Shown one piece after another: positions 45,911 to 60,893 of a stretch of 64,000 nt of DNA. The DNA lies in NCBI GenBank assembly GCA_021740745.1, contig JAIOZF010000005.1:1-64000 (forward strand). Reading direction: 5' to 3'. The DNA is from Crocinitomicaceae bacterium. GTDB lineage: Bacteria; Bacteroidota; Bacteroidia; Flavobacteriales_D; Crocinitomicaceae. Within the stretch, counting starts at the first letter, position 1. Each line of letters begins with the position of its first letter. The notes under the pieces are model-generated. The model made no database searches, was not told the DNA's origin, and was given only the letters and a program-made list of their open reading frames with translations. The position numbers and the translations under genes are program-made.

Positions 45911-46564
45911 ATGAAAAATAAAGTTAACCTATTAACTGTCTTCAGTTTTGTTTTTATTACTAGCTTTTTTGCCAATGCTCAAAACAAGGCTGCAGAAGGG
46001 ATGGAAGCATCAGAAACTAACTTTTCTAGTTTTACAGATCGCCCAATTCAAAATTTAGGTAATTGGAAGAAAATCAATAAAGAAGCGTTTTATTCTCATC
46101 CAGAGTTTGGTATTTTGTCATTAGATGCATCTTGTAAAGATTGTTCCGAAGACTTATCGAAACGAACGGTAGATGAACGATTTTTTGTTGATAATAATGA
46201 CCATAAACAATTTTATCAGCAAAAAGCAATGGGAGAATTGCATGAGCTCATTGGAGGCAATTGGACAACAATTGATCATCGTTTGAAAAAAGTCTCTAAT
46301 GGCATCTATAAATCTGGTTTTAATTTGGATAGGGCTGGTTTTGACCTTGCAAATAAAATATCGTTACTTGAAACTACTAATGGCAATCTAAGTTTCAATA
46401 ATTGGAGATTGATTTTAAAAAAAGATGGTCAATTACAGGGCCCTATTTCAGCCAACTGGTCAATCATTTCAATCGGTGATGATGGCGTTAATATAACAGC
46501 TGTATTCCCGGGAATTGATGCTTTTATTATTGATAACTTCTGCACCCTTAACGTTAAAGTTTAA
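45911..46564 (+). CDS. secreted protein of unknown function (217 aa), possibly truncated N-terminal module of a larger surface protein
   Basis: Signal peptide MKNKVNLLTVFSFVFITSFFANAQ; no counterpart in cassette copy 2. Confidence 0.75.
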   Translation: MKNKVNLLTVFSFVFITSFFANAQNKAAEGMEASETNFSSFTDRPIQNLGNWKKINKEAFYSHPEFGILSLDASCKDCSEDLSKRTVDERFFVDNNDHKQFYQQKAMGELHELIGGNWTTIDHRLKKVSNGIYKSGFNLDRAGFDLANKISLLETTNGNLSFNNWRLILKKDGQLQGPISANWSIISIGDDGVNITAVFPGIDAFIIDNFCTLNVKV

Positions 46565-46731: not shown

Positions 46732-47211
46732 ATGCGCATAGTTCCCTTAATATTAGCTATACTGTCTGTTCTGATTTGTCAAAACAGCATTTCTCAACAA
46801 CAAATATCAACAGATACAATTAATTTAATTGACAAATACTCAGTTGATTGGCTAACATATTTTGAAAATGATCAAGTTAAGATTGAATATAAATTCTCAG
46901 AATGCGATCCTGAAATGGGATATGATTTCGAACAAGTGAATTTTAAGTTTATCAATAAAACTTCTACCAAACTTGATCTCAATTGGCATATCCATTTGTA
47001 TTATGATAAAAAATGCTTGACATGTAATTATCCGGATGAGTATGCGCGAACCATTCAATTGCTACCAAATGAGACACTAGAAGGGAATTGCGACCGAGAA
47101 ACTATTAATGAATTGAAATTGTTTTCAAAATTCACTGATGTAAACTATTCTAAAGGTGCGATTTTAACAAGTTTTCAGTTAGCTTCATTAAATATTGCAT
47201 TTCCTCAGTAA
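46732..47211 (+). CDS. secreted companion protein, paralog 1
   Basis: Signal peptide; core GYDFEQVNFKFINKTSTKLDLNWHIHLYYDKKCLTCN shared with 54951..55421. Confidence 0.88.
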   Translation: MRIVPLILAILSVLICQNSISQQQISTDTINLIDKYSVDWLTYFENDQVKIEYKFSECDPEMGYDFEQVNFKFINKTSTKLDLNWHIHLYYDKKCLTCNYPDEYARTIQLLPNETLEGNCDRETINELKLFSKFTDVNYSKGAILTSFQLASLNIAFPQ

Positions 47212-47273: not shown

Positions 47274-50200
47274 ATGAAAAATATAAGACAGATCGTTCTA
47301 ATGTTCACTTTTTTATCAATGAACATTTTAGTGTTTTCACAAACCTATCTATTAAGTGCTGCTGCTAACAATACCACTGTAAGCACTTGTGGGGGTAATT
47401 TTTATGATTCTGGTGGAGCGACAGGACAATATACTAATAATCAAAACCGTACTATTACATTTTGTCCGAATACACCTGGAGCAATGATTCGCTTGAATTT
47501 TACAGCGTTTGCGTTAGAAAATTCTTATGATTTTCTTTACATATATAATGGTACTAGCACAGCAGCACCTTTATTAGGAACATATACGGGAACAAACAAT
47601 CCTGGTGTGGTTACAGCAAATAATCCTTCAGGATGTATAACAATCAGATTCACCTCTGATGGTTCTGTTTTAGCAAATGGTTGGGCAGCTGCCATTTCAT
47701 GCATTGCACCCGCGACATGCACTGATGGTATTCAAAATCAAGGTGAAAACGGTATAGACTGCGGTGGCCCTTGTGCAGCTTGTCCTCCTGTCCCTTGTAA
47801 TGTTAATTTAACATATACATCAGTACCGGCCAACCTAACATGTGCGGGCGGATCAGTTTCATTAACAGCTGTTGGTCTAGGCACAAATAACCTAGCAATG
47901 AACAATAATTTTAACGGAGGATCTTTAGGTGCTGGTTGGATTGCAACAGGTGGGCAGTCCGTAGGAACACTTTGCGGACCAAGTCTTGATGGCACTCCTT
48001 ATTATTGGGCATCAACAGCCGGTTCTAGTGTTCCTCAGTTAACAACTGCTGTTTTAAACGTAAGTTGCGGTGGTATAATTAGTTTTGATATGGATTATGC
48101 AACTCAAGGAGCCAATGCACCTTGTGAAGGACCTGATTTACCGAATGAGGGTGTTACCTTTCAGTACTCTACTAATGGCGGTGCTTCATGGACGGTTATT
48201 CAGTATTGGGATCCGCTAGGTGGTTATAATGCTGGATTGACAAACTGGAACACATATTCATTTCCAATTCCGCCTGGTGCAATTGGGCCAAATACTCAAT
48301 TCCAATGGATTCAATTGTCATCATCTGGATCTCAATATGATAATTGGGGGATTGATAATGTACAAATTTCATCTGTAATTAATTGCAACGCTTATTGGTA
48401 TGATTATTCTTTTTTACCGCCTACAAGTGATAACGCAGTTCAAACAACAAATATAACTAGTACCACAACTTTTAATGTCACCTATACAAATGGTATAGAT
48501 GCTTGTAATACTTCTGTAACTGTTGTTGTTCCTCCAGGAACTACTGCCAATGCAGGGCCAGATAAAGTAAGATGTTCTGGTGGTGCAGGAGTTGTGATTG
48601 GTGCGAATCCGGTTTCACCTGATAATGGGGCTACTTATTCATGGAGTGCTGGCGCTGGATCAGGAACAATAGATCTTATACCAGCAGGAGGCACAACTAC
48701 TGGTCAAGTAACCGTTTCACCTTTGGTAACAACAACCTATACATTAACTGTTACCTTTAATGGTTGTACCGTAACTGATCAAGTTACTGTTGTTGTTGAT
48801 AATCCGCCAACAGCATCTAATCCTGCACCAATTACATTAACATGTGCTTCAGCAATTCCAGCACCAGATATAAATGTTGTTACAACAGAAGCCGACGATA
48901 TCACAATTCCTCCTACAGTAACTTGGATTAGTGATGTTTCAAATGGTGGTATTTGTCCAAATATTGTAACAAGAACTTATCGTGTAACTGATGGATGTGG
49001 AAACTTTGTTAATGTTACTCAAACGATTACTGTTTCAGATTTAATTGCTCCAACAGTAACTGGAACTTTAACGGCAGCTGCAGTATCGGGATGCTCCGCG
49101 ACTTCAGTTCCTGCAGCAGTAACGACAGTTGCAGCTTTGGAAGCAATGGGCGTTGCAATAGCTGATAACTGCACTGCAGATGCTAGTTTAACGGTAACAA
49201 GTTCAGATGGAGCGCCAACAGGTACTTGTCCGATTGTGATAATCAGAACGTATACCATCAAAGATGCGTGTTTGAATGCAATTACAGTTAATCAAACAAT
49301 CAATATTACAGACCTAATAGTTCCAACAGCTTCTAATCCTGTTGATATTTCTGTAGCCGCAGGAACTGCGCCAGCGCCAAACATTTTACTTGTTATTGAT
49401 GAGGCAGACAATTGTTCAATTCCAATAGTTGCTTGGGTAAGTGATGTTAGCAATGGAGGAACATGTCCAGAAATAATTACAAGAACTTACAGTGTTACAG
49501 ATGCATGTTTAAACCAAATATTATTAACTCAAACAATAACTGTTGGAGATGCTATTTTGCCAACTGCCTCAAATCCTTCAGCAATAAATGTTCAATGTTC
49601 AGCTTTAGTGCCATTACCAGATGTTTTAGTTGTAACAGATGAAGCCGATAATGGGGTAACACCAACTGTGACTTGGCAAGATGATGTGTCAAATGGTTTG
49701 ACTTGTCCAGAAATAATTACAAGAAGATACCTAGTTACTGATGATTGTGGAAACTTTATTTTTGTCACTCAAACAATAACAGTATTGGACACACAAGCTC
49801 CAGTTTTTGTAGCTCCACCAACTGCTGTCACTGTTGCTTGTTTAGCTGACGTTCCTGCGATGACCAACCTTGGGTATACTGATAATTGCGATCCTGCTGG
49901 ATCGGTAGCTGGTACTGATGGTGCTTTAGTTGGAGGTGCTTGTGGTGGTACAATAACACGTACGTGGACTTTCACTGATCTTTGCGGTAATACTTCTACA
50001 ACAACTCAAACAATTACAGTTGACGATAATACGTTGCCTACGGCTTCAAATCCTGCAACGATAACTGTTCCTGGTGGACCAGCTCCAGCGGTTGATGTGA
50101 CAGTCGTAATTGATGAAGCGGATAACTGCTCTGTACCTGTAGTTACTTTCGTGAGTGAATCAACTGACGGTGCCGCTTGTCCTGAAACGATTACTCGTAT

Positions 50201-53200
50201 TTACGCTGTAACGGATGCTTGTGGGAATACAATCAATGTTACACATACTATTCTTATTACAGATCCATTCTCACCAACTGCTTCAAACCCTGCTCCTATT
50301 TCTGTAGAGTGCATCGCTGATGTTCCAGCTCAAAATATTGCAGTTGTGACGGATGAAGCAGATAATACAGGTGTGCCGATCGTTGCTTGGGTAAGTGACG
50401 TATCGAACGGTGCTACTTGTCCAGAAATTATTACACGTACTTATTCTGTTACGGATCTCTGTAACAATCAAATCTTGGTGACTCAAACAATTACGGTCGA
50501 TGATGTAACTACTCCAATATTCGCTGCAGCGCCAGCTGCGGTAACTGTTTCTTGTTTAGCTGACGTTCCTGCAATGACAAACCTTGGATACACTGATAAC
50601 TGTGATCCTGCTGGATCGGTTTCAGGAACTGATGTTTCTAATGGAGGTACTTGTCCTGAAATTATAACAAGAACATGGACTTTTACGGATCTTTGTGGGA
50701 ATACTTCAAGTGCTTCGCAAACAATTACAGTTCACGATTTAGTAGCACCAATATTCGCTGCTGCTCCGGCTGCTGTAACCGTTGCTTGCGCTGCTGACGT
50801 TCCTGCAATGACAAACCTTGGATACACTGATAATTGTGATCCTGCTGGATCGGTTACAGGAACTGATGTTTCTAATGGTGGTACTTGTCCTGAAATCATA
50901 ACAAGAACATGGACTTATACGGATGCTTGCGGCAACACTTCATCTACTACTCAGACTATCACTGTTCATGATTTAGTAGCACCAATATTCGCTGCTGCTC
51001 CTGCTGCTCTTACTGTTGCTTGTTTAGCTGACGTTCCTGCGATGACAAACCTTGGATATACTGATAATTGCGATCCTGCTGGATCGGTTGCTGGCACTGA
51101 TGGTGCTTTAGTTGGCGGTGCTTGTGGTGGAACAATCACACGTACGTGGTCTTTCACTGATCTTTGCGGTAACACTTCGTCTACTACTCAAACAATTACA
51201 GTTGATGATAATACGTTGCCTACTGCTTCTAATCCTGCGACAACTACTGTTCCTGGTGGTCCAGCTCCAGCGGTTGATGTGACAGTAGTAATTGATGAAG
51301 CGGATAACTGCTCTGTACCCGTAGTTGCTTTCGTAAGTGAGTCAACTGACGGTGCCGCTTGTCCTGAAACGATTACTCGTATTTACGCTGTAACCGATGC
51401 TTGTGGGAATACATTCAATGTTACACATACTATTCTTATTACAGATCCATTCTCACCAACAGCTTCAAACCCTGCTCCTATTTCTGTAGAATGTATCACT
51501 GATGTTCCGGCTCAAAACATTGCAGTTGTGACGGATGAAGCAGATAATACAGGTGTGCCGATCGTTGCTTGGGTAAGTGATGTGTCTAACGGTGCTACTT
51601 GTCCAGAAATCATTACACGTACTTACTCTGTTACGGATCTCTGTAACAATCAAATCTTGGTGACTCAAACAATCACGGTCGATGATGTAACTACTCCAAT
51701 ATTCGCTGCTGCGCCAGCTGCGGTAACTGTTGCTTGTTTAGCTGATGTTCCTGCAATGACAAACCTTGGATACACTGATAATTGTGATCCTGCTGGATCG
51801 GTTACAGGAACTGATGTTTCTAATGGTGGCACTTGTCCTGAAATTATAACAAGAACATGGACTTTTACGGATGCTTGTGGTAACACTTCATCCACCTCTC
51901 AAACAATTACAGTTCATGATTTAGTACCACCAATATTCGCTGCTGCTCCGGTTGCTGTAACTGTTTCTTGTTTATCTGACGTTCCTGCGATGACCAACCT
52001 TGGATACACGGATAATTGTGATCCTGCTGGATCGGTTACAGGAACTGATGTTTCTAATGGAGGTACTTGTCCTGAAATCATAACAAGAACATGGACATTC
52101 ACGGATCTTTGCGGCAACACTTCATCTACTACTCAGACTATCACTGTTCACGATTTAGTAGCACCAATATTCGCTGCTGCGCCAACTGCTGTAACTGTTG
52201 CTTGTTTAGCTGACGTTCCTGCGATGACAAACCTTGGATACACTGATAATTGTGATCCTGCTGGATCGGTTGCTGGTACTGATGGTGCTTTAGTTGGAGG
52301 TGCTTGTGGTGGTACAATCACACGAACGTGGTCTTTCACTGATCTTTGTGGTAACACTTCGTCTACTACTCAAACAATTACAGTTGACGATAATACGTTG
52401 CCTGCGGCTTCTAATCCTGCGACAACTACTGTTCCTGGTGGACCAGCTCCAGCGGTTGATGTGACAGTCGTAATTGATGAAGCGGATAACTGCTCTGTAC
52501 CTGTAGTTACTTTCGTGAGTGAATCAACTGACGGTGCCGCTTGTCCTGAAACAATTACTCGTATTTACGCTGTAACGGATGCTTGTGGGAATACAATCAA
52601 TGTTACACATACTATTCTTATTACAGATCCATTCTCACCAACAGCTTCAAACCCTGCTCCTATTTCTGTAGAATGTATCGCTGATGTTCCGGCTCAAAAT
52701 ATTGCAGTTGTGACGGATGAAGCAGATAATACAGGTGTGCCGATTGTTGCTTGGGTAAGTGACGTATCGAACGGTGCTACTTGTCCAGAAATCATTACGC
52801 GTACCTATTCTGTAACGGATCTCTGTAACAATCAAATCTTGGTGACTCAAACAATCACGGTCGATGATATCACTGCTCCAACTGGTACAGCACCAGCAAA
52901 CGTGACAGTCGAATGTATTAATGACGTGCCACCAGTTCCTTTAGCAGTTACATTCGTGATAACAGATGCGATGGACAATTGCACGGCTGTTCCAGCGTTG
53001 GATTGGGTTGGTGATGTATCCGATGGAAATACATGTCCTGAGACAATCACAAGAACTTTCTCAATTACTGACAATTGTGGAAATCAGACATTAGTTGATC
53101 AATTAATCATTGTAAATGACGTTACAGCACCAACTGCTTCTAACCCAGGCAGCGTGAATGTTGAGTGTATTTTAGATGTTCCGGTAGCTGACATTACAGT

Positions 53201-54632
53201 TATAACAAATGAAGCTGATAACTGCACTACCGCTCCACTTGTTGCATGGGTAAGTGACGTTTCTGATAACGGAACATGTCCTGAAACAATTACAAGAACT
53301 TATTCTGTGACAGATGATTGTGGTAATCAAACGTTGTTAACACAAACTATCATTGTCAATGATGTCACCAATCCAACTGCTACTAACCCTGTTGCTATTA
53401 GTGTTGTTAGCGCTGCGACGGTTCCTGTTCCAGATCCAACAGTTGTTATAGATGAAGCAGATAATTGTACTACAAATCCAATCGTTGTATGGGTAAGTGA
53501 TGTGTCAAACGGTAATGTATGTAACAATGAACAAATCACACGTACATACAGTGTTACTGACGATTGTGGGAATAGTATAATTGTGACACAATTAATTACT
53601 ATAACTGCAATTTACCCTACAATATCTGCCGGAGTGGATCAAACCGTATGTGAAAATGAATCAGTAACCTTGTCTGGAACTTATAGTCCATCTACAACAG
53701 TTATTTCTTGGACGGCACCAGTAGTTGATGGTGTGAGCTTTACACCTCAAGTTGGAACGAATACCTATACACTTACCGCAAATAATTATGGTTGTATTGC
53801 AACTGACAATTTGACTATTGTAGTAAATCCAATACCCGCAGTAAGCTTTACACCTGATGTTACTGAAGGATGTGAACCGTTAAGTGTGTTCTTCAACAAT
53901 ACTTCTACTTCAGGATTAGCACTTACTAATTGTGTTTGGACGATGGGAGATGGCACAGTTCTAAACGGTTGTGGAGATATTAACTATACTTATAACAATC
54001 CAGGAATCTTTACTGTTGGATTAACATCAACAGATGCAAATGGTTGTACAAATTCGGTTTCTTATCAGAACTTGATTTATGTTGAAGATTATCCTGTTGC
54101 AGACTTTACAGCTTCAGAGTACAACTTGAGCAATTTATTAAATGAAACAGAGGTTAATTTTACGAATCAATCAAGTGGTGCAGTAACCTACTTATGGACA
54201 TTTGGTGATGGAGGAAATTCCACGGAAACAAATCCTAGTCATTTATTTGAAACTGATTTAGCTGGAAGTTATACAGTAATGCTGGTTGCCTATTCTGATT
54301 TAGGATGCACGGATACTGCGTATCAATCATTCACAGTGACGGAAGAATTAATTTTCTATGTTCCAAATACGTTCACGCCAGATAATGATGTATTCAACAA
54401 TACCTTCCAACCTGTATTTACTTCAGGGTTTGATCCTTACAACTTCAACATGTTAATTTACAATCGTTGGGGAGAAATTATTTTTGAAACACGCGATGCT
54501 TCAATCGGATGGGACGGTACATACAATGGTGATTATGCTCAAGATGGAATTTACACGTGGAAAATTGAATTTAAATCAAGAGTTAACGACAAGAAATATG
54601 TAAAAGTAGGCCATGTCAATATGATGAGATAA
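47274..54632 (+). CDS. giant surface protein: CUB-like + Cys-rich + reelin-subrepeat-like + HYR-like array + PKD + gliding-motility (T9SS type B) C-terminal domain
   Basis: 2452-aa uninterrupted ORF; C-terminus FYVPNTFTPDNDVFNNTFQPVFTSGFDPYNFNMLIYNRWGEIIFETRDASIGWDGTYNGDYAQDGIYTWKIEFK; repeats SNPAPISVECIADVPAQNIAVVTDEADNTGVPIVAWVSDVSNGATCPEIITRTYSVTDLC. Confidence 0.95.
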   Translation: MKNIRQIVLMFTFLSMNILVFSQTYLLSAAANNTTVSTCGGNFYDSGGATGQYTNNQNRTITFCPNTPGAMIRLNFTAFALENSYDFLYIYNGTSTAAPLLGTYTGTNNPGVVTANNPSGCITIRFTSDGSVLANGWAAAISCIAPATCTDGIQNQGENGIDCGGPCAACPPVPCNVNLTYTSVPANLTCAGGSVSLTAVGLGTNNLAMNNNFNGGSLGAGWIATGGQSVGTLCGPSLDGTPYYWASTAGSSVPQLTTAVLNVSCGGIISFDMDYATQGANAPCEGPDLPNEGVTFQYSTNGGASWTVIQYWDPLGGYNAGLTNWNTYSFPIPPGAIGPNTQFQWIQLSSSGSQYDNWGIDNVQISSVINCNAYWYDYSFLPPTSDNAVQTTNITSTTTFNVTYTNGIDACNTSVTVVVPPGTTANAGPDKVRCSGGAGVVIGANPVSPDNGATYSWSAGAGSGTIDLIPAGGTTTGQVTVSPLVTTTYTLTVTFNGCTVTDQVTVVVDNPPTASNPAPITLTCASAIPAPDINVVTTEADDITIPPTVTWISDVSNGGICPNIVTRTYRVTDGCGNFVNVTQTITVSDLIAPTVTGTLTAAAVSGCSATSVPAAVTTVAALEAMGVAIADNCTADASLTVTSSDGAPTGTCPIVIIRTYTIKDACLNAITVNQTINITDLIVPTASNPVDISVAAGTAPAPNILLVIDEADNCSIPIVAWVSDVSNGGTCPEIITRTYSVTDACLNQILLTQTITVGDAILPTASNPSAINVQCSALVPLPDVLVVTDEADNGVTPTVTWQDDVSNGLTCPEIITRRYLVTDDCGNFIFVTQTITVLDTQAPVFVAPPTAVTVACLADVPAMTNLGYTDNCDPAGSVAGTDGALVGGACGGTITRTWTFTDLCGNTSTTTQTITVDDNTLPTASNPATITVPGGPAPAVDVTVVIDEADNCSVPVVTFVSESTDGAACPETITRIYAVTDACGNTINVTHTILITDPFSPTASNPAPISVECIADVPAQNIAVVTDEADNTGVPIVAWVSDVSNGATCPEIITRTYSVTDLCNNQILVTQTITVDDVTTPIFAAAPAAVTVSCLADVPAMTNLGYTDNCDPAGSVSGTDVSNGGTCPEIITRTWTFTDLCGNTSSASQTITVHDLVAPIFAAAPAAVTVACAADVPAMTNLGYTDNCDPAGSVTGTDVSNGGTCPEIITRTWTYTDACGNTSSTTQTITVHDLVAPIFAAAPAALTVACLADVPAMTNLGYTDNCDPAGSVAGTDGALVGGACGGTITRTWSFTDLCGNTSSTTQTITVDDNTLPTASNPATTTVPGGPAPAVDVTVVIDEADNCSVPVVAFVSESTDGAACPETITRIYAVTDACGNTFNVTHTILITDPFSPTASNPAPISVECITDVPAQNIAVVTDEADNTGVPIVAWVSDVSNGATCPEIITRTYSVTDLCNNQILVTQTITVDDVTTPIFAAAPAAVTVACLADVPAMTNLGYTDNCDPAGSVTGTDVSNGGTCPEIITRTWTFTDACGNTSSTSQTITVHDLVPPIFAAAPVAVTVSCLSDVPAMTNLGYTDNCDPAGSVTGTDVSNGGTCPEIITRTWTFTDLCGNTSSTTQTITVHDLVAPIFAAAPTAVTVACLADVPAMTNLGYTDNCDPAGSVAGTDGALVGGACGGTITRTWSFTDLCGNTSSTTQTITVDDNTLPAASNPATTTVPGGPAPAVDVTVVIDEADNCSVPVVTFVSESTDGAACPETITRIYAVTDACGNTINVTHTILITDPFSPTASNPAPISVECIADVPAQNIAVVTDEADNTGVPIVAWVSDVSNGATCPEIITRTYSVTDLCNNQILVTQTITVDDITAPTGTAPANVTVECINDVPPVPLAVTFVITDAMDNCTAVPALDWVGDVSDGNTCPETITRTFSITDNCGNQTLVDQLIIVNDVTAPTASNPGSVNVECILDVPVADITVITNEADNCTTAPLVAWVSDVSDNGTCPETITRTYSVTDDCGNQTLLTQTIIVNDVTNPTATNPVAISVVSAATVPVPDPTVVIDEADNCTTNPIVVWVSDVSNGNVCNNEQITRTYSVTDDCGNSIIVTQLITITAIYPTISAGVDQTVCENESVTLSGTYSPSTTVISWTAPVVDGVSFTPQVGTNTYTLTANNYGCIATDNLTIVVNPIPAVSFTPDVTEGCEPLSVFFNNTSTSGLALTNCVWTMGDGTVLNGCGDINYTYNNPGIFTVGLTSTDANGCTNSVSYQNLIYVEDYPVADFTASEYNLSNLLNETEVNFTNQSSGAVTYLWTFGDGGNSTETNPSHLFETDLAGSYTVMLVAYSDLGCTDTAYQSFTVTEELIFYVPNTFTPDNDVFNNTFQPVFTSGFDPYNFNMLIYNRWGEIIFETRDASIGWDGTYNGDYAQDGIYTWKIEFKSRVNDKKYVKVGHVNMMR
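49791..52870 (+). repeat. higher-order tandem repeat, period 1182 bp (394 aa, five HYR-like units), ~2.6 copies
   Basis: Identical landmarks spaced exactly 1182 bp: GTDGALVGG codons at 49911/51093/52275; antisense shadow ORFs at 50283/51465/52647. Confidence 0.95.
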
Positions 54633-54650: not shown

Positions 54651-54680
54651 AAAAAAGCGATCTAAACGATCGCTTTTTTT
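54651..54680 (+). terminator. terminator of cassette copy 1 (duplicated)
   Basis: aaaaaagcgatctaaacgatcgcttttttt. Confidence 0.9.
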
Positions 54681-54950: not shown

Positions 54951-55421
54951 ATGAAATCTCTACTATTCATTTTAATTTTGTTGTCAACGAGTCGCTTATC
55001 TGCGCAAAGTCAACTCCCAACAGATACAATTAACCTAATTGACAATCATTCAACAACTTGGAGAACGTATTTTGAAAATGATCAAATTCGAATTGAATTT
55101 ATATCATCCAATTGCGACCCTTCAATGGGATATGACTTTGAACAAGTGAATTTTAAGTTTATCAATAAAACTTCTACCAAACTTGATCTCAATTGGCATA
55201 TACATTTGTATTATGATAAGAAATGCTTAACATGTAATCATCCTATGGAATATTCCCGAACAATCAGATTGATTGGAAATGAAACGTTAGAGGGTGACTG
55301 CAGAAGAGAAACGCCAGATGAATTGAAATTATTTTCCAAATTCAACGATGCAAACTATTCGAAAGGTGCTATACTAACGTCCTTTCAATTGGCATTCTTA
55401 ACTATTTCTGCAGTTGACTAA
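54951..55421 (+). CDS. secreted companion protein, paralog 2
   Basis: Signal peptide MKSLLFILILLSTSRLSAQ; aligned to paralog 1 across its length, with a 62-nt identical stretch. Confidence 0.88.
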   Translation: MKSLLFILILLSTSRLSAQSQLPTDTINLIDNHSTTWRTYFENDQIRIEFISSNCDPSMGYDFEQVNFKFINKTSTKLDLNWHIHLYYDKKCLTCNHPMEYSRTIRLIGNETLEGDCRRETPDELKLFSKFNDANYSKGAILTSFQLAFLTISAVD

Positions 55422-55469
55422 ACTGTCGCTCATACTTTTTTGTTACGATCCGAATTAACAATATACATT

Positions 55470-58400
55470 ATGAAATTTTTATTCTCAATATTATTTACAG
55501 TTGCACTATTATCTGATGGGGTATTTGCTCAAGCAGTTGTGCCATGTGATGTAGAATTAACATATTCTACCGGTTTTTATGATCCGCCGCCAGTTGCAGG
55601 CCCGGCATATAACATGTCAAATACTACAGTAAACACTTGTGGAGGAACTTTTTATGATCCAAATGGAACAGGTAATTACGCCAATAATCAATTAAATACA
55701 ATGACATTTTGTTCTTCGACTGCAGGTGCTCAGCTACAGTTCATATTTACTTTATGGAATCTTGAAACTTGTTGCGATTATTTAAGTATTTATGATGGTC
55801 CAAATACGTCAAGTCCACTATTGTTCAATGATGATGGGTCAAATAGCCCTGGAACAGTTACTTCAAGTAATGGGTGTTTAACTTTTGTTTGGGACTCGGA
55901 TGGTTCAGTTGTCGGTCAAGGTTGGGCGGCTACAATCAATTGTGTTGATGTGCCTATCCCCTTCAATTGCAATGGAGGAACTGTTTTTTTACAAGCAACT
56001 GGCGTTGGTGACTACGAAATAGTTCAAAATAATAATTTTAATAATGGTTCATTAGGTGCTGGTTGGGTGGCAACAGGTGGTCAATCTGTTGGTACAGCTT
56101 GTGGTCCAAGTCTTGATGGTACTCCTTACTATTGGGCATCTACTGCTGGATCAGGTGTTCCTCAATTAACCACAGTTGGCTTAGATGTGAGTTGTGGTGG
56201 ATTTCTGACATTTGACTTGGATTATGCTACTCAAGGTGGAGCAGCTCCTTGTGAGGGTCCCGATTTACCCAACGAAGGTGTTACACTGCAATATTCAACA
56301 AACGGTGGAGCAACATGGACTGTCATTGAGTATTTTGAACCACTAGGTGGATATGATGCTACAATGACAAGTTGGAATAACTATTCCTTCCCAATTCCTC
56401 CAGGAGCGGTTGGTCCAAATACTCAATTTCAATGGATTCAACTTTCGTCATCCGGTTCTTGTTGTGATAACTGGGGAATTGATAATGTCCAAGTTTCTTC
56501 TGTTGTTAATTGTACACCTTATTGGTATGATTATTCATACCTTCCCCCCTCTGTTGACAATCCAAGTCAAACTGCGACGATAACGTCTACAACTACTTTT
56601 AATGTTACCTATACGAATGGAATAGATGCTTGCAGCACTTCAGTAACTGTTGTTGTACCTCCAGGAACGACAGCAAATGCTGGTGCTGATGTCACAATGT
56701 GTGCAGGTGGAACAGGTGTTGTAATAGGAGCAAGCCCTGTTACATCAGACAACGGTGCTACTTTCTCTTGGAGCGCAGGAGCAGGTTCGGGCACAATCGA
56801 CTTAGTTCCTGCTGGAGGCACAACCACAGGTCAAGTTACAGTTTCACCAGCAGTTACTACAACTTATACATTAACAGTTACTTACAATGGTTGCACAACA
56901 ACGGATCAAGTTACTGTAACTGTAAATCCAGTTGCGACGGTAAATGCGAATATCGAACAGACTGTTTGTGCAGGTGGTACAATTACACTTGCTGGTGCAG
57001 TTGGCGGCGGAGCAACTTCGGGGACTTGGACCGCACCAACGGGAACATTTTCCAGTGCAAGCAATTTAGCATCAACTTATACTCCTTCAATAACTTCAGG
57101 AACGGAAACGTTAACACTTACTACAGATGATCCAGCTGGACCATGCCCTTCTGTTTTAGATCAAATGATCGTAACTGTAAATCCGGTTCCAACAGTGATT
57201 GCTGGTCAACCACAAACGGTATGTGAAGGAACTAATATCACACTTGCTGGTACTGGAGCAACAAGCTATTCATGGGACAATGGAGTAACACAAGGTATAG
57301 CGTTTGCTCCTACTGCTACAACAACCTATACGGTTACAGGTACAACTTTAGGATGCACAAATACAAGCACAGTTACTGTGACTGTAAATCCAATTCCTAA
57401 CGTTAATGCAGGTAATGACATTTCAATCTGTGCGTCTACATCAACGACTTTAACAGCATCGGGTGCAACAACATATTCATGGTCTCCAGGTGGATTGACA
57501 ACTGCAGAAATCACTGTTTCTCCAGCTGCGACAACTAGTTATACTGTTACTGGTACATCTTTAGGATGCACCGCAACTGATATCGTAACTGTTACTGTGG
57601 CGGGCAGTGCGCCAATTAATGCAGGTCCGGATGTTGAATTATGTATCGGAGCTTCGACCACATTGAATGGCACTGGTGGTGATACATATGTATGGGATAA
57701 TGGTTTAGGTAATGGCAACAACTTTACAATTTCGCCAGCTTCGACAACAACTTATACTGTCATTGGAACAGATGCTTCTGGTTGTGTTGGAACAGATGCA
57801 ATTACAGTAACTATTAATCCAATACCAACAGTTCTTGCTGGTCAGCCACAAACGGTTTGTTCAGGCACAGCTGTGACTTTAAGCGCTTCTGGAGCAACAA
57901 GCTATTCTTGGGATAACGGTATTTCGCAAGGGGTAGCTTTTACACCTACTGCAACAACAACATATACAGTTACAGGAACAGCTTTAGGTTGTACAAATAC
58001 TAGTTCTGTATTAGTGACGGTAAATCCTTTACCAACGGTAGTAGCTGGTCCGCAACAAACAGTTTGTGAAGGGACTTCTATTACGCTAACTGCATCTGGT
58101 GCATCAACTTATACATGGGACAATGGCGTTACTCAAGGTGTAGCGTTTACTCCTACTGTTGGCGCTGTGACATATACAGTCACTGGTACTTCTGGTGCTG
58201 GATGCACCAATACTAGTGCAGTTTTAGTTACAGTTAATCCTTTGCCACTTGCAGATGCTGGTGGAGATCAGGTAGTTTGCGCAGGAACAAGTGTTACATT
58301 ATCTGGACAAGGTGCCGCAACTTATTCATGGAATATTAGTGTAACAAATGGTACAGCCTTTACTCCTGCTGTTGGCGCTGTGACATATACAGTCACTGGT

Positions 58401-60893
58401 ACTTCTGGTGCTGGATGTATAGCAACTGATCAAGTTGTGGTAACAGTAAATCCTAATCCATCTCCAATAATAAATGGAACGACTGATTATTGCATTGGAT
58501 ACCCTGCACTTTTGTCAACCTCTATTCCTTTTGCAACTTACGATTGGTCTACATTGGTTTCAACAGCGACTACTTCTGCTACAATAGCTAATAATCCAAT
58601 TACGGTTACCGTTACGAATGCTTTTGGTTGTTCCGGCACTTCTCCAGCATTTATTGTGAATGAAAATTTATTTATTACTGCCAATTCAACTGAAACAATT
58701 TGTCAAGGACAATCAGTTTTGATTCATGGGGTTTCTCAATCGGTAGCAGGTTTATACTCGCAAACGTTTACAACCAGTACTTGTGATTCTGTTTCGAATG
58801 TTACGTTAATTGTTAATCCATTACCAATTGTTAATGCCGGATTGGATCAGGAAGTTTGCACACTAACAGCAACTTCATTGACCGCAACAGGTGCTGCAAC
58901 TTATTCATGGGATAATGGAATTACAAATGGAGTTACTTTTACTCAAGCTCTCGGAACGACTACTTATACCGTAACGGGAACAAGTGTTGATGGTTGTATC
59001 AGTACGGACCAAGTTGATATCATAGTTAATCCTCTCCCTCTGATAGATGCAGGTGCAGATCAAGCAATTTGTATTGGAACATCTGCTATTATTTCAGGAG
59101 CAGGAGCAGCGACCTATACATGGAATAATGGTGTGACAGATAATGTTTCATTTACACCAGCTTTAACAAATACGTATACCGTTACAGGAACAGATGCTAA
59201 TGGATGTGTAAACACAGACCAAGTTGTTGTGACTGTTAATCCATTGCCAACAGTGGTTGCCGGACCAGACGAAGATATTTGTTTTGGAGCATCCGTTACC
59301 TTATCAGGTTCTGGTGCTTCAACATACACATGGGATAATAGTGTAACAAATGGTATTTCATTTTCTCCTGCTGCAACGACCACTTATACCGTTACAGGGA
59401 CAGATCTGAATGGATGTATCGATACGGATCAAGTTTTAGTAACTGTTAATCCTTTACCAGTTGTAAATGCTGGTATAGATCAAGATGTTTGTCAAGGAAC
59501 TCTTATTACACTTTCTGGTGCTGGAGCAACTACCTATTCTTGGAATAATGGTGTACTAAATGGAACTCCTTTTACACAAGCTGTTGGAACTGTAACATAC
59601 ACTGTAACAGGAACTGACGCAAATGGTTGTATTGATACTGATCAAGCTGACATTACTGTCAACCCAACACCGGTTGTAAATGCAGGACTTGATCAAATTG
59701 TTTGTATTGGTGCTTCTGTTACGTTAGCAGGAAGTGGAACGTCAACCTATTCATGGAACAATGGAATTACAAACAACGTTGCCTTTACACCTTCTCTTGG
59801 AACTGTAACTTATACTGTAACAGGAACAAGTATTGAGGGATGTATAACAACTGATGACGTTGTTGTCACCGTAAATCCTTTGCCAGTTGTCTTTGCAGGA
59901 AATGACGTTACTGTTTGTGAAGGATCAACTGTAACTTTAACTGGTTCAGGTGCTTCAAACTATTCTTGGAATAATGGTGTGTTGAATGGAACACCATTTA
60001 CACCGAGCGTTGGCACAACAACGTATACAGTCACAGGCACATCAGCTGCAGGTTGTATAAATACTGATCAAATAGACATAATTGTTAATCCAATACCAAT
60101 AGTATCATTTTCTCCAGATGTAACAAGTGGTTGTGTACCATTAACGGTGAATCTAACAAACACAACTCCAAATTCTGTAAACTGCTTGTGGACGATTAGT
60201 AATGGTACTGTTTTAAATGGATGTGGAACTGTACCAGTTACTTTCACACAAGGAGGATGTTATGATGTGACATTAACGACAACATCTAATAATGGATGCG
60301 CTGGTACATTAACTTCAACAAATCTTATTTGTGTTGAAGCATTGCCTATCGCTTCGTTCTCTCCATCTTCTAATACGGTAACAACGATCAATACAGAAGT
60401 GATTTTCACAAATCAATCAATTGGTGCATCTTCATATTACTGGACTTTTGGAGACGATTCACCATCATCTACAGATGTTAATCAAATTCATGTATATCCA
60501 GATAGTGAGACAGCGAATTACTTAGTAACATTAATTGCATACTCGCCACTAGGTTGCACGGATACAGCTTTAGCATATATAAATGTGGTTGAAGAATTGA
60601 TTTTCTATGTACCCAATACATTCACTCCAGATGATGATAATTTTAATCCAGTTTTTCAACCTATTTTCACAGCTGGTTTCGATCCTTATGATTATACCTT
60701 ATTAATTTTTAACCGTTGGGGTGAAATCATTTTTGAATCAAAAGATGCATCAATTGGATGGAATGGAACGTATGGTTCAAATGGAGAAATACAAATGTGT
60801 CAGGATGGAACATATACATGGAAAATTGAATTCAAAACAAAATTGAATGACGAACGGAAAATGATCCTTGGTCATGTTAACCTAGTAAGATAA
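55470..60893 (+). CDS. giant surface protein: CUB-like + reelin-subrepeat-like + Ig-like repeat array + PKD + gliding-motility (T9SS type B) C-terminal domain
   Basis: Likely start MKFLFSILFTVALLSDGVFAQ at 55470 (track start 55440); repeats such as VNAGIDQDVCQGTLITLSGAGATTYSWNNGVLNGTPFTQAVGTVTYTVTGTDANGCIDTDQADITVNP; C-terminus FYVPNTFTPDDDNFNPVFQPIFTAGFDPYDYTLLIFNRWGEIIFES. Confidence 0.95.
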   Translation: MKFLFSILFTVALLSDGVFAQAVVPCDVELTYSTGFYDPPPVAGPAYNMSNTTVNTCGGTFYDPNGTGNYANNQLNTMTFCSSTAGAQLQFIFTLWNLETCCDYLSIYDGPNTSSPLLFNDDGSNSPGTVTSSNGCLTFVWDSDGSVVGQGWAATINCVDVPIPFNCNGGTVFLQATGVGDYEIVQNNNFNNGSLGAGWVATGGQSVGTACGPSLDGTPYYWASTAGSGVPQLTTVGLDVSCGGFLTFDLDYATQGGAAPCEGPDLPNEGVTLQYSTNGGATWTVIEYFEPLGGYDATMTSWNNYSFPIPPGAVGPNTQFQWIQLSSSGSCCDNWGIDNVQVSSVVNCTPYWYDYSYLPPSVDNPSQTATITSTTTFNVTYTNGIDACSTSVTVVVPPGTTANAGADVTMCAGGTGVVIGASPVTSDNGATFSWSAGAGSGTIDLVPAGGTTTGQVTVSPAVTTTYTLTVTYNGCTTTDQVTVTVNPVATVNANIEQTVCAGGTITLAGAVGGGATSGTWTAPTGTFSSASNLASTYTPSITSGTETLTLTTDDPAGPCPSVLDQMIVTVNPVPTVIAGQPQTVCEGTNITLAGTGATSYSWDNGVTQGIAFAPTATTTYTVTGTTLGCTNTSTVTVTVNPIPNVNAGNDISICASTSTTLTASGATTYSWSPGGLTTAEITVSPAATTSYTVTGTSLGCTATDIVTVTVAGSAPINAGPDVELCIGASTTLNGTGGDTYVWDNGLGNGNNFTISPASTTTYTVIGTDASGCVGTDAITVTINPIPTVLAGQPQTVCSGTAVTLSASGATSYSWDNGISQGVAFTPTATTTYTVTGTALGCTNTSSVLVTVNPLPTVVAGPQQTVCEGTSITLTASGASTYTWDNGVTQGVAFTPTVGAVTYTVTGTSGAGCTNTSAVLVTVNPLPLADAGGDQVVCAGTSVTLSGQGAATYSWNISVTNGTAFTPAVGAVTYTVTGTSGAGCIATDQVVVTVNPNPSPIINGTTDYCIGYPALLSTSIPFATYDWSTLVSTATTSATIANNPITVTVTNAFGCSGTSPAFIVNENLFITANSTETICQGQSVLIHGVSQSVAGLYSQTFTTSTCDSVSNVTLIVNPLPIVNAGLDQEVCTLTATSLTATGAATYSWDNGITNGVTFTQALGTTTYTVTGTSVDGCISTDQVDIIVNPLPLIDAGADQAICIGTSAIISGAGAATYTWNNGVTDNVSFTPALTNTYTVTGTDANGCVNTDQVVVTVNPLPTVVAGPDEDICFGASVTLSGSGASTYTWDNSVTNGISFSPAATTTYTVTGTDLNGCIDTDQVLVTVNPLPVVNAGIDQDVCQGTLITLSGAGATTYSWNNGVLNGTPFTQAVGTVTYTVTGTDANGCIDTDQADITVNPTPVVNAGLDQIVCIGASVTLAGSGTSTYSWNNGITNNVAFTPSLGTVTYTVTGTSIEGCITTDDVVVTVNPLPVVFAGNDVTVCEGSTVTLTGSGASNYSWNNGVLNGTPFTPSVGTTTYTVTGTSAAGCINTDQIDIIVNPIPIVSFSPDVTSGCVPLTVNLTNTTPNSVNCLWTISNGTVLNGCGTVPVTFTQGGCYDVTLTTTSNNGCAGTLTSTNLICVEALPIASFSPSSNTVTTINTEVIFTNQSIGASSYYWTFGDDSPSSTDVNQIHVYPDSETANYLVTLIAYSPLGCTDTALAYINVVEELIFYVPNTFTPDDDNFNPVFQPIFTAGFDPYDYTLLIFNRWGEIIFESKDASIGWNGTYGSNGEIQMCQDGTYTWKIEFKTKLNDERKMILGHVNLVR

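Follow-up and report, generated by a model that had tools for sequence, protein, structure and literature searches.

The DNA analysed here, hereafter the window, is a 64,000-nucleotide stretch of a Crocinitomicaceae genome (contig JAIOZF010000005.1) that encodes two giant proteins of the type IX secretion system (T9SS), each preceded by a small exported companion of about 130 residues in its mature form. Our analysis indicates that the companion probably serves the Reelin-like front end of such proteins as a dedicated helper or partner. The reading that we favour, to which we give a probability of roughly 45%, is that it works within the periplasm as the partner of this N-terminal module, its likeliest role there being that of a chaperone or escort specific to its pair.

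Two companion–giant pairs and their sequence families

The preliminary description of this DNA reported an exported protein of 156-159 aa directly before both giants, and the reading frames, signal peptides and common strand bear it out (Table 1). Companion and giant lie on the same strand in each pair, separated by 62 bp in the first and by 48 bp in the second. The hairpin after giant 1, listed on the - strand and reading A6...T7 on the + strand as well, suggests two separate companion–giant units. These two companions are the only ones in the genome; a scan of genome contigs with P0001 returned one locus only. Upstream of companion 1, positions 45911-46564 encode an exported 217-aa protein without a Pfam match.

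Table 1. Features of the companion–giant locus, in window coordinates
Feature	Position	Strand	Remarks
Companion 1	46732..47211	+	159 aa; N-terminal signal peptide (by inspection); conserved family positions C58, N75, C95xxC98, E103, C120; no sorting domain
Tract identical to 55150-55211	46930..46991	+	62 bp; probable recent gene conversion between companions
CxxC pair C95/C98 of companion 1	47014..47025	+	from the family alignment, 61 members
Giant 1	47274..54632	+	2452 aa; signal peptide, CUB, Reelin-B module, HYR_4C stalk, PKD, type B sorting domain
CUB domain of giant 1	47472..47690	+	residues 67-139
Reelin_subrepeat-B module of giant 1	47952..48371	+	proposed target of companion 1; matches solved Reelin structures (E 3.5e-20)
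CHU_C type B T9SS sorting domain of giant 1	54360..54596	+	
Terminator-like hairpin	54651..54679	.	near-palindromic, 12-bp stem; between giant 1 and companion 2
Companion 2	54951..55421	+	156 aa; paralog of companion 1, 73% identical
Giant 2	55470..60893	+	1807 aa counted from the first ATG (55470), the ORF opening at 55440 with TTG; signal peptide, CUB, Reelin-B module, Ig_7 stalk, PKD, type B sorting domain
CUB domain of giant 2	55629..55934	+	residues 64-165 of the ORF from 55440
Reelin_subrepeat-B module of giant 2	56079..56495	+	
CHU_C type B T9SS sorting domain of giant 2	60609..60860	+	

Both giants match the CHU_C / TIGR04131 type B sorting domain. Matches between the partner profile and the Aureispira grappling-hook protein GhpA (PDB 9flp) occur in 18 stretches, and the best of these lies outside the Reelin module, over the repeats after it.

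Searched as single sequences and as a 61-member family profile, the companions gave no convincing match to Pfam, NCBIfam or PDB sequences, and the weak matches obtained scatter across many unrelated folds. The family was first described as unrecognised, and so it stays, with no known unrelated family emerging as a match; it appears undescribed in the sequence libraries and the open-access literature covered here. An AlphaFold2 model built on an alignment of three close sequences reached a mean pLDDT of 42.6. The companion matches neither CHU_C, Por_Secre_tail nor TIGR04131 and thus carries no type A or type B sorting domain, and comparison with the partner N-terminus revealed no homology, only the signal peptides aligning.

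The segment YDFEQVNFKFINKTSTKLDLNWHIHLYYDKKCLTCN, which had been quoted as the core of the family, has to be given up as such. Its identity in the two copies goes back to a probable recent gene conversion of local extent, which overstates the motif's conservation in the family, whose conserved core consists of the positions given in Table 1: the two companions share 62 identical bases at 46930-46991 and 87 of 90 bases over the overlapping stretch 46933-47022, against roughly 50-85% identity in most flanking 30-base blocks.

Pairing with the Reelin-like module across Flavobacteriales

A search with a single sequence recovered homologs in 18 of 60 relatives, and where the DNA downstream of a homolog outside the window was read, which was the case for 20, a secreted ORF of the same kind came directly after it every time. 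With a profile, 117 of 198 genomes in the same family-rank group proved to carry the family, as did 101 of 296 genomes in the order, spread over 27 of 65 genera; a sample across the phylum gave 3 of 299 genomes, our own included. The contrast between 101/296 and 3/299 therefore marks it as essentially a family of this order, Flavobacteriales. The same arrangement in homologs across the order shows that the pairing is real and not due to chance, and most homologs adjoin T9SS type B proteins, contrary to the case, named in the preliminary description as refuting, of homologs that mostly lack such a neighbour.

In 50 genomes searched for PF21471, 79 of the 80 companions listed have a Reelin_subrepeat-B protein just downstream, the sole exception being the first copy of a tandem duplication; over all fetched non-redundant loci, a set purposely enriched for odd clades, 92 of 118 companions are paired. 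The gap to the partner has a median of 13-14 bp and is 50 bp or less in 51 of 59 fetched loci, with several overlaps, as expected for translational coupling. Of the partner N-termini scanned, 54 of 59 contain PF21471, and of the C-termini, 48 of 51 contain CHU_C, each set including one orphan locus in which the next gene is a polysaccharide enzyme. An apparent companion–giant fusion in one genome (G137, a 1649-aa frame) proved to be two ORFs with a TAG stop between them.

The partners range from 625 to 2483 aa, and their stalks differ freely (none, SprB, PKD, HYR or Ig_7). Many of those outside the window measure only about 650-1100 aa, so that being a giant T9SS protein as such does not define a partner. 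The preliminary description had further proposed a 1:1 pairing with each giant T9SS protein, which holds for both giants of the window but fails genome-wide, where 46 CHU_C proteins, 44 of them above the curated cut-off, stand against two companions. Only two strong Reelin-B proteins occur among the 46, precisely the two with companions, which leads to the rule that the companion goes with the Reelin-like module at the N-terminus and not with the T9SS giant. A chance placement of a secreted gene before a T9SS gene was considered and ruled out, since the genome's two strong Reelin-B genes both lie behind its only two companions.

Companion and module also vary together, although the distances are not independent and the co-variation is accordingly support, not proof: across 47 pairs, the distances between companions show a correlation of r=0.80 with those between modules and of 0.52 with those between sorting domains, the partial correlations being 0.73 and 0.26, respectively. 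When partners were swapped within genomes that have several pairs, the true correlation with the module was reached in 5 of 13,824 arrangements, a count that includes the true one, and the same test against the sorting domain gave 9 of 13,824.

Exceptions occur on both sides. In the genus g41 the companion persists at the same syntenic site with the module gene missing and a polysaccharide-biosynthesis gene next to it (15 loci), three further loci are unpaired, and at least 15 genomes have the companion but not its usual neighbour; orphan-type loci with such a polysaccharide gene next are L111, L179, L185, L187-L189, L233-L239 and L241-L243. Six such g41 genomes were tested and contain no Reelin-B protein above the cut-off, and the orphan companions tested are under purifying selection (pN/pS 0.18-0.55, with synonymous sites saturated). 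The few other unpaired cases are distant members in families f4 and f9, one in f3, and those of G112 and G253, the protein after the companion in G253 having a type A-like tail. Conversely, 79 of the 125 Reelin-B proteins in the 50 genomes have a listed companion and six more gained one on inspection; those without are mostly of an internal-domain class, short or weak matches, the first members of giant-companion-giant clusters, or at contig ends. Long proteins with a FWxGFMxN-like N-terminal motif, an internal Reelin-B and no companion were seen at L151-L155, L158 and L183, and the order LytTR regulator, giant, companion, giant at L167 and L169 (G137 and G123), with two Reelin-tipped giants and one companion.

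Proposed role of the companion and alternatives

On the chaperone or escort reading, the companion would be made first, from the same short operon as the giant, and its own signal peptide would take it across the inner membrane. It would then meet the giant's Reelin-like N-terminal module as this emerges in the periplasm and hold it in a folded or shielded state up to the giant's passage through the T9SS translocon, for which the giant uses its C-terminal signal. The companion is exported by a signal peptide (inspection) and has no outer-membrane export signal of its own, as a periplasmic chaperone would. Having a signal peptide without a sorting domain, it cannot use the T9SS alone by the known route and should stop in the periplasm, and the gene order, companion then giant, fits a protein needed as the giant's N-terminus emerges. 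Its own signal peptide, the lack of a T9SS signal, its earlier translation and its tie to the first-arriving module make a chaperone or escort our first choice; physical binding, the periplasmic site of action and the chaperone role itself are inferred. Counting against it are the g41 companions, kept under purifying selection without a module gene, and some Reelin-B proteins that have no companion, for example those in which the domain is internal.

The main rival, which we rank second and regard as possible but doubtful, is a tip or cap subunit that binds the Reelin-like module in the periplasm, is exported with the giant and stays at the distal tip. The pairing and co-variation fit it equally; because the giant is anchored at its C-terminus and bears the module at its N-terminus, the companion's place would be distal, and its conserved cysteines and mostly acidic surface would suit an extracellular protein. 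Lacking a sorting domain, however, it would have to be exported by piggy-backing, and a literature search on type IX secretion and piggyback co-export returned no title or abstract describing such co-export; the retention of the companion without a module protein in g41 weighs against this reading too. We consider it unlikely that the companion is instead a disulfide partner, linked covalently to the cysteine-rich module or to an envelope component by a labile CxxC disulfide or exchanging disulfides with the module's cysteines. C95 and C98 do behave as a unit among the 61 aligned members (both present in 55, both absent in 6, never one alone), the module has several conserved cysteines, and a precedent exists in Flavobacterium johnsoniae, where SprF and PorG form permanent intermolecular disulfides with GldK through a Cys-X-Cys motif (PMC12635249). 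Some of the six members without CxxC nevertheless keep a module partner (e.g. L082), and no thioredoxin-fold profile matched the companion above chance level.

Two further readings are much less probable. That the companion works like an inhibitor or immunity protein against some activity of the T9SS cargo encoded after it is suggested by the potempins of KLIKK proteases, whose small genes lie directly upstream of the cognate secreted protein (PMC7296668). This reading shares the gene arrangement only, because the partners lack enzyme domains: no protease or other enzyme domain was found in the two window giants (P0003, P0004) or in nine full-length partners. Potempins are moreover described as lipoproteins (PMC7296668), whereas a lipobox-like pattern occurs in only 5 of 61 companions, mostly inside the signal peptide; we hold this reading very improbable.

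Least probable of all is that the companion replaces a PorP/SprF-like carrier in collecting the giant's C-terminal sorting domain from the translocon. In its favour, the genome has 18 PorP/SprF matches, 11 of them by position after CHU_C genes (11 of 46 CHU_C proteins), and none near the window pairs, and such a gene adjoins the companion in only 4 of 60 pairs. In those four, however, the two genes are same-strand neighbours, the PorP/SprF-like one directly before the companion (L066, L076, L082, L106), and in 0 of 60 does it follow the partner. SprF-like carriers act at the C-terminal signal of type B substrates (PMC12618676, PMC9143113), whereas the companion co-varies more with the module than with the sorting domain, which points indirectly to the N-terminal end, and type B substrates orphaned from their carrier gene can use a shared distant carrier (PMC12618676). 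Neither the two companions nor the listed matches of the 61 members hit PF11751 (PorP_SprF), a barrel profile of about 270 positions against about 130 mature residues in the companion. From the SprF gene positions across pairs we therefore conclude that the companion neither is nor strictly replaces a PorP/SprF carrier. The original suggestion of a partner of a different kind is upheld, given the companion's size, its upstream position and the lack of a PorP_SprF match. PorP/SprF-like gene, companion and partner possibly form a three-gene adhesin operon; in one example (L022 in G029) the PorP/SprF-like gene also carries a SPOR domain.

Comparison with known systems

Dedicated adhesin chaperones are a feature of other secretion systems, such as the chaperone-usher pathway, in which an exported periplasmic protein is co-expressed with the adhesin. 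On the reading favoured here the companion would resemble these chaperones as an exported periplasmic protein co-expressed with the adhesin that it serves; it differs from them in matching no Pfam family. We know of no cargo-specific periplasmic chaperone used by the T9SS, and a dedicated partner of a Reelin-like front end appears undescribed for this system.

The potempins of Tannerella forsythia, which inhibit KLIKK proteases and are described as lipoproteins encoded upstream of the cognate protease, are like the companion small, exported, pair-specific and placed directly upstream of the secreted protein that they accompany (PMC7296668). The companion differs in having no consistent lipobox and a partner without a protease domain. 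Vertebrate Reelin enters the comparison through the partner, whose N-terminal module matches PF21471 and solved Reelin structures, while the companion itself has no similarity to the Reelin-B (PF21471) module.

If the proposed role is correct, some T9SS adhesins need help at their N-terminus or carry one more subunit at the tip. A family of small proteins that has had no name would gain a testable role, and a class of Flavobacteriales surface proteins would be defined by its Reelin-like module and not by its stalk or sorting domain.

The closest comparison within the T9SS is the PorP/SprF-like shuttle, whose gene, like that of the companion, is paired with a type B adhesin and which is cognate to it with some specificity (PMC12618676, PMC9143113). 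The shuttle resides in the outer membrane and binds the sorting domain at the substrate's C-terminus, and its gene usually lies downstream, whereas the companion is small, exported, encoded upstream and co-varies with the N-terminal module. The cargo pairing known for the T9SS concerns the C-terminal signal and its carrier only, and on balance we lean towards regarding an exported chaperone or tip subunit for Reelin-like N-terminal modules, independent of the C-terminal signal and of the SprF-like carrier, as the first N-terminal, cargo-specific partner system of the T9SS.
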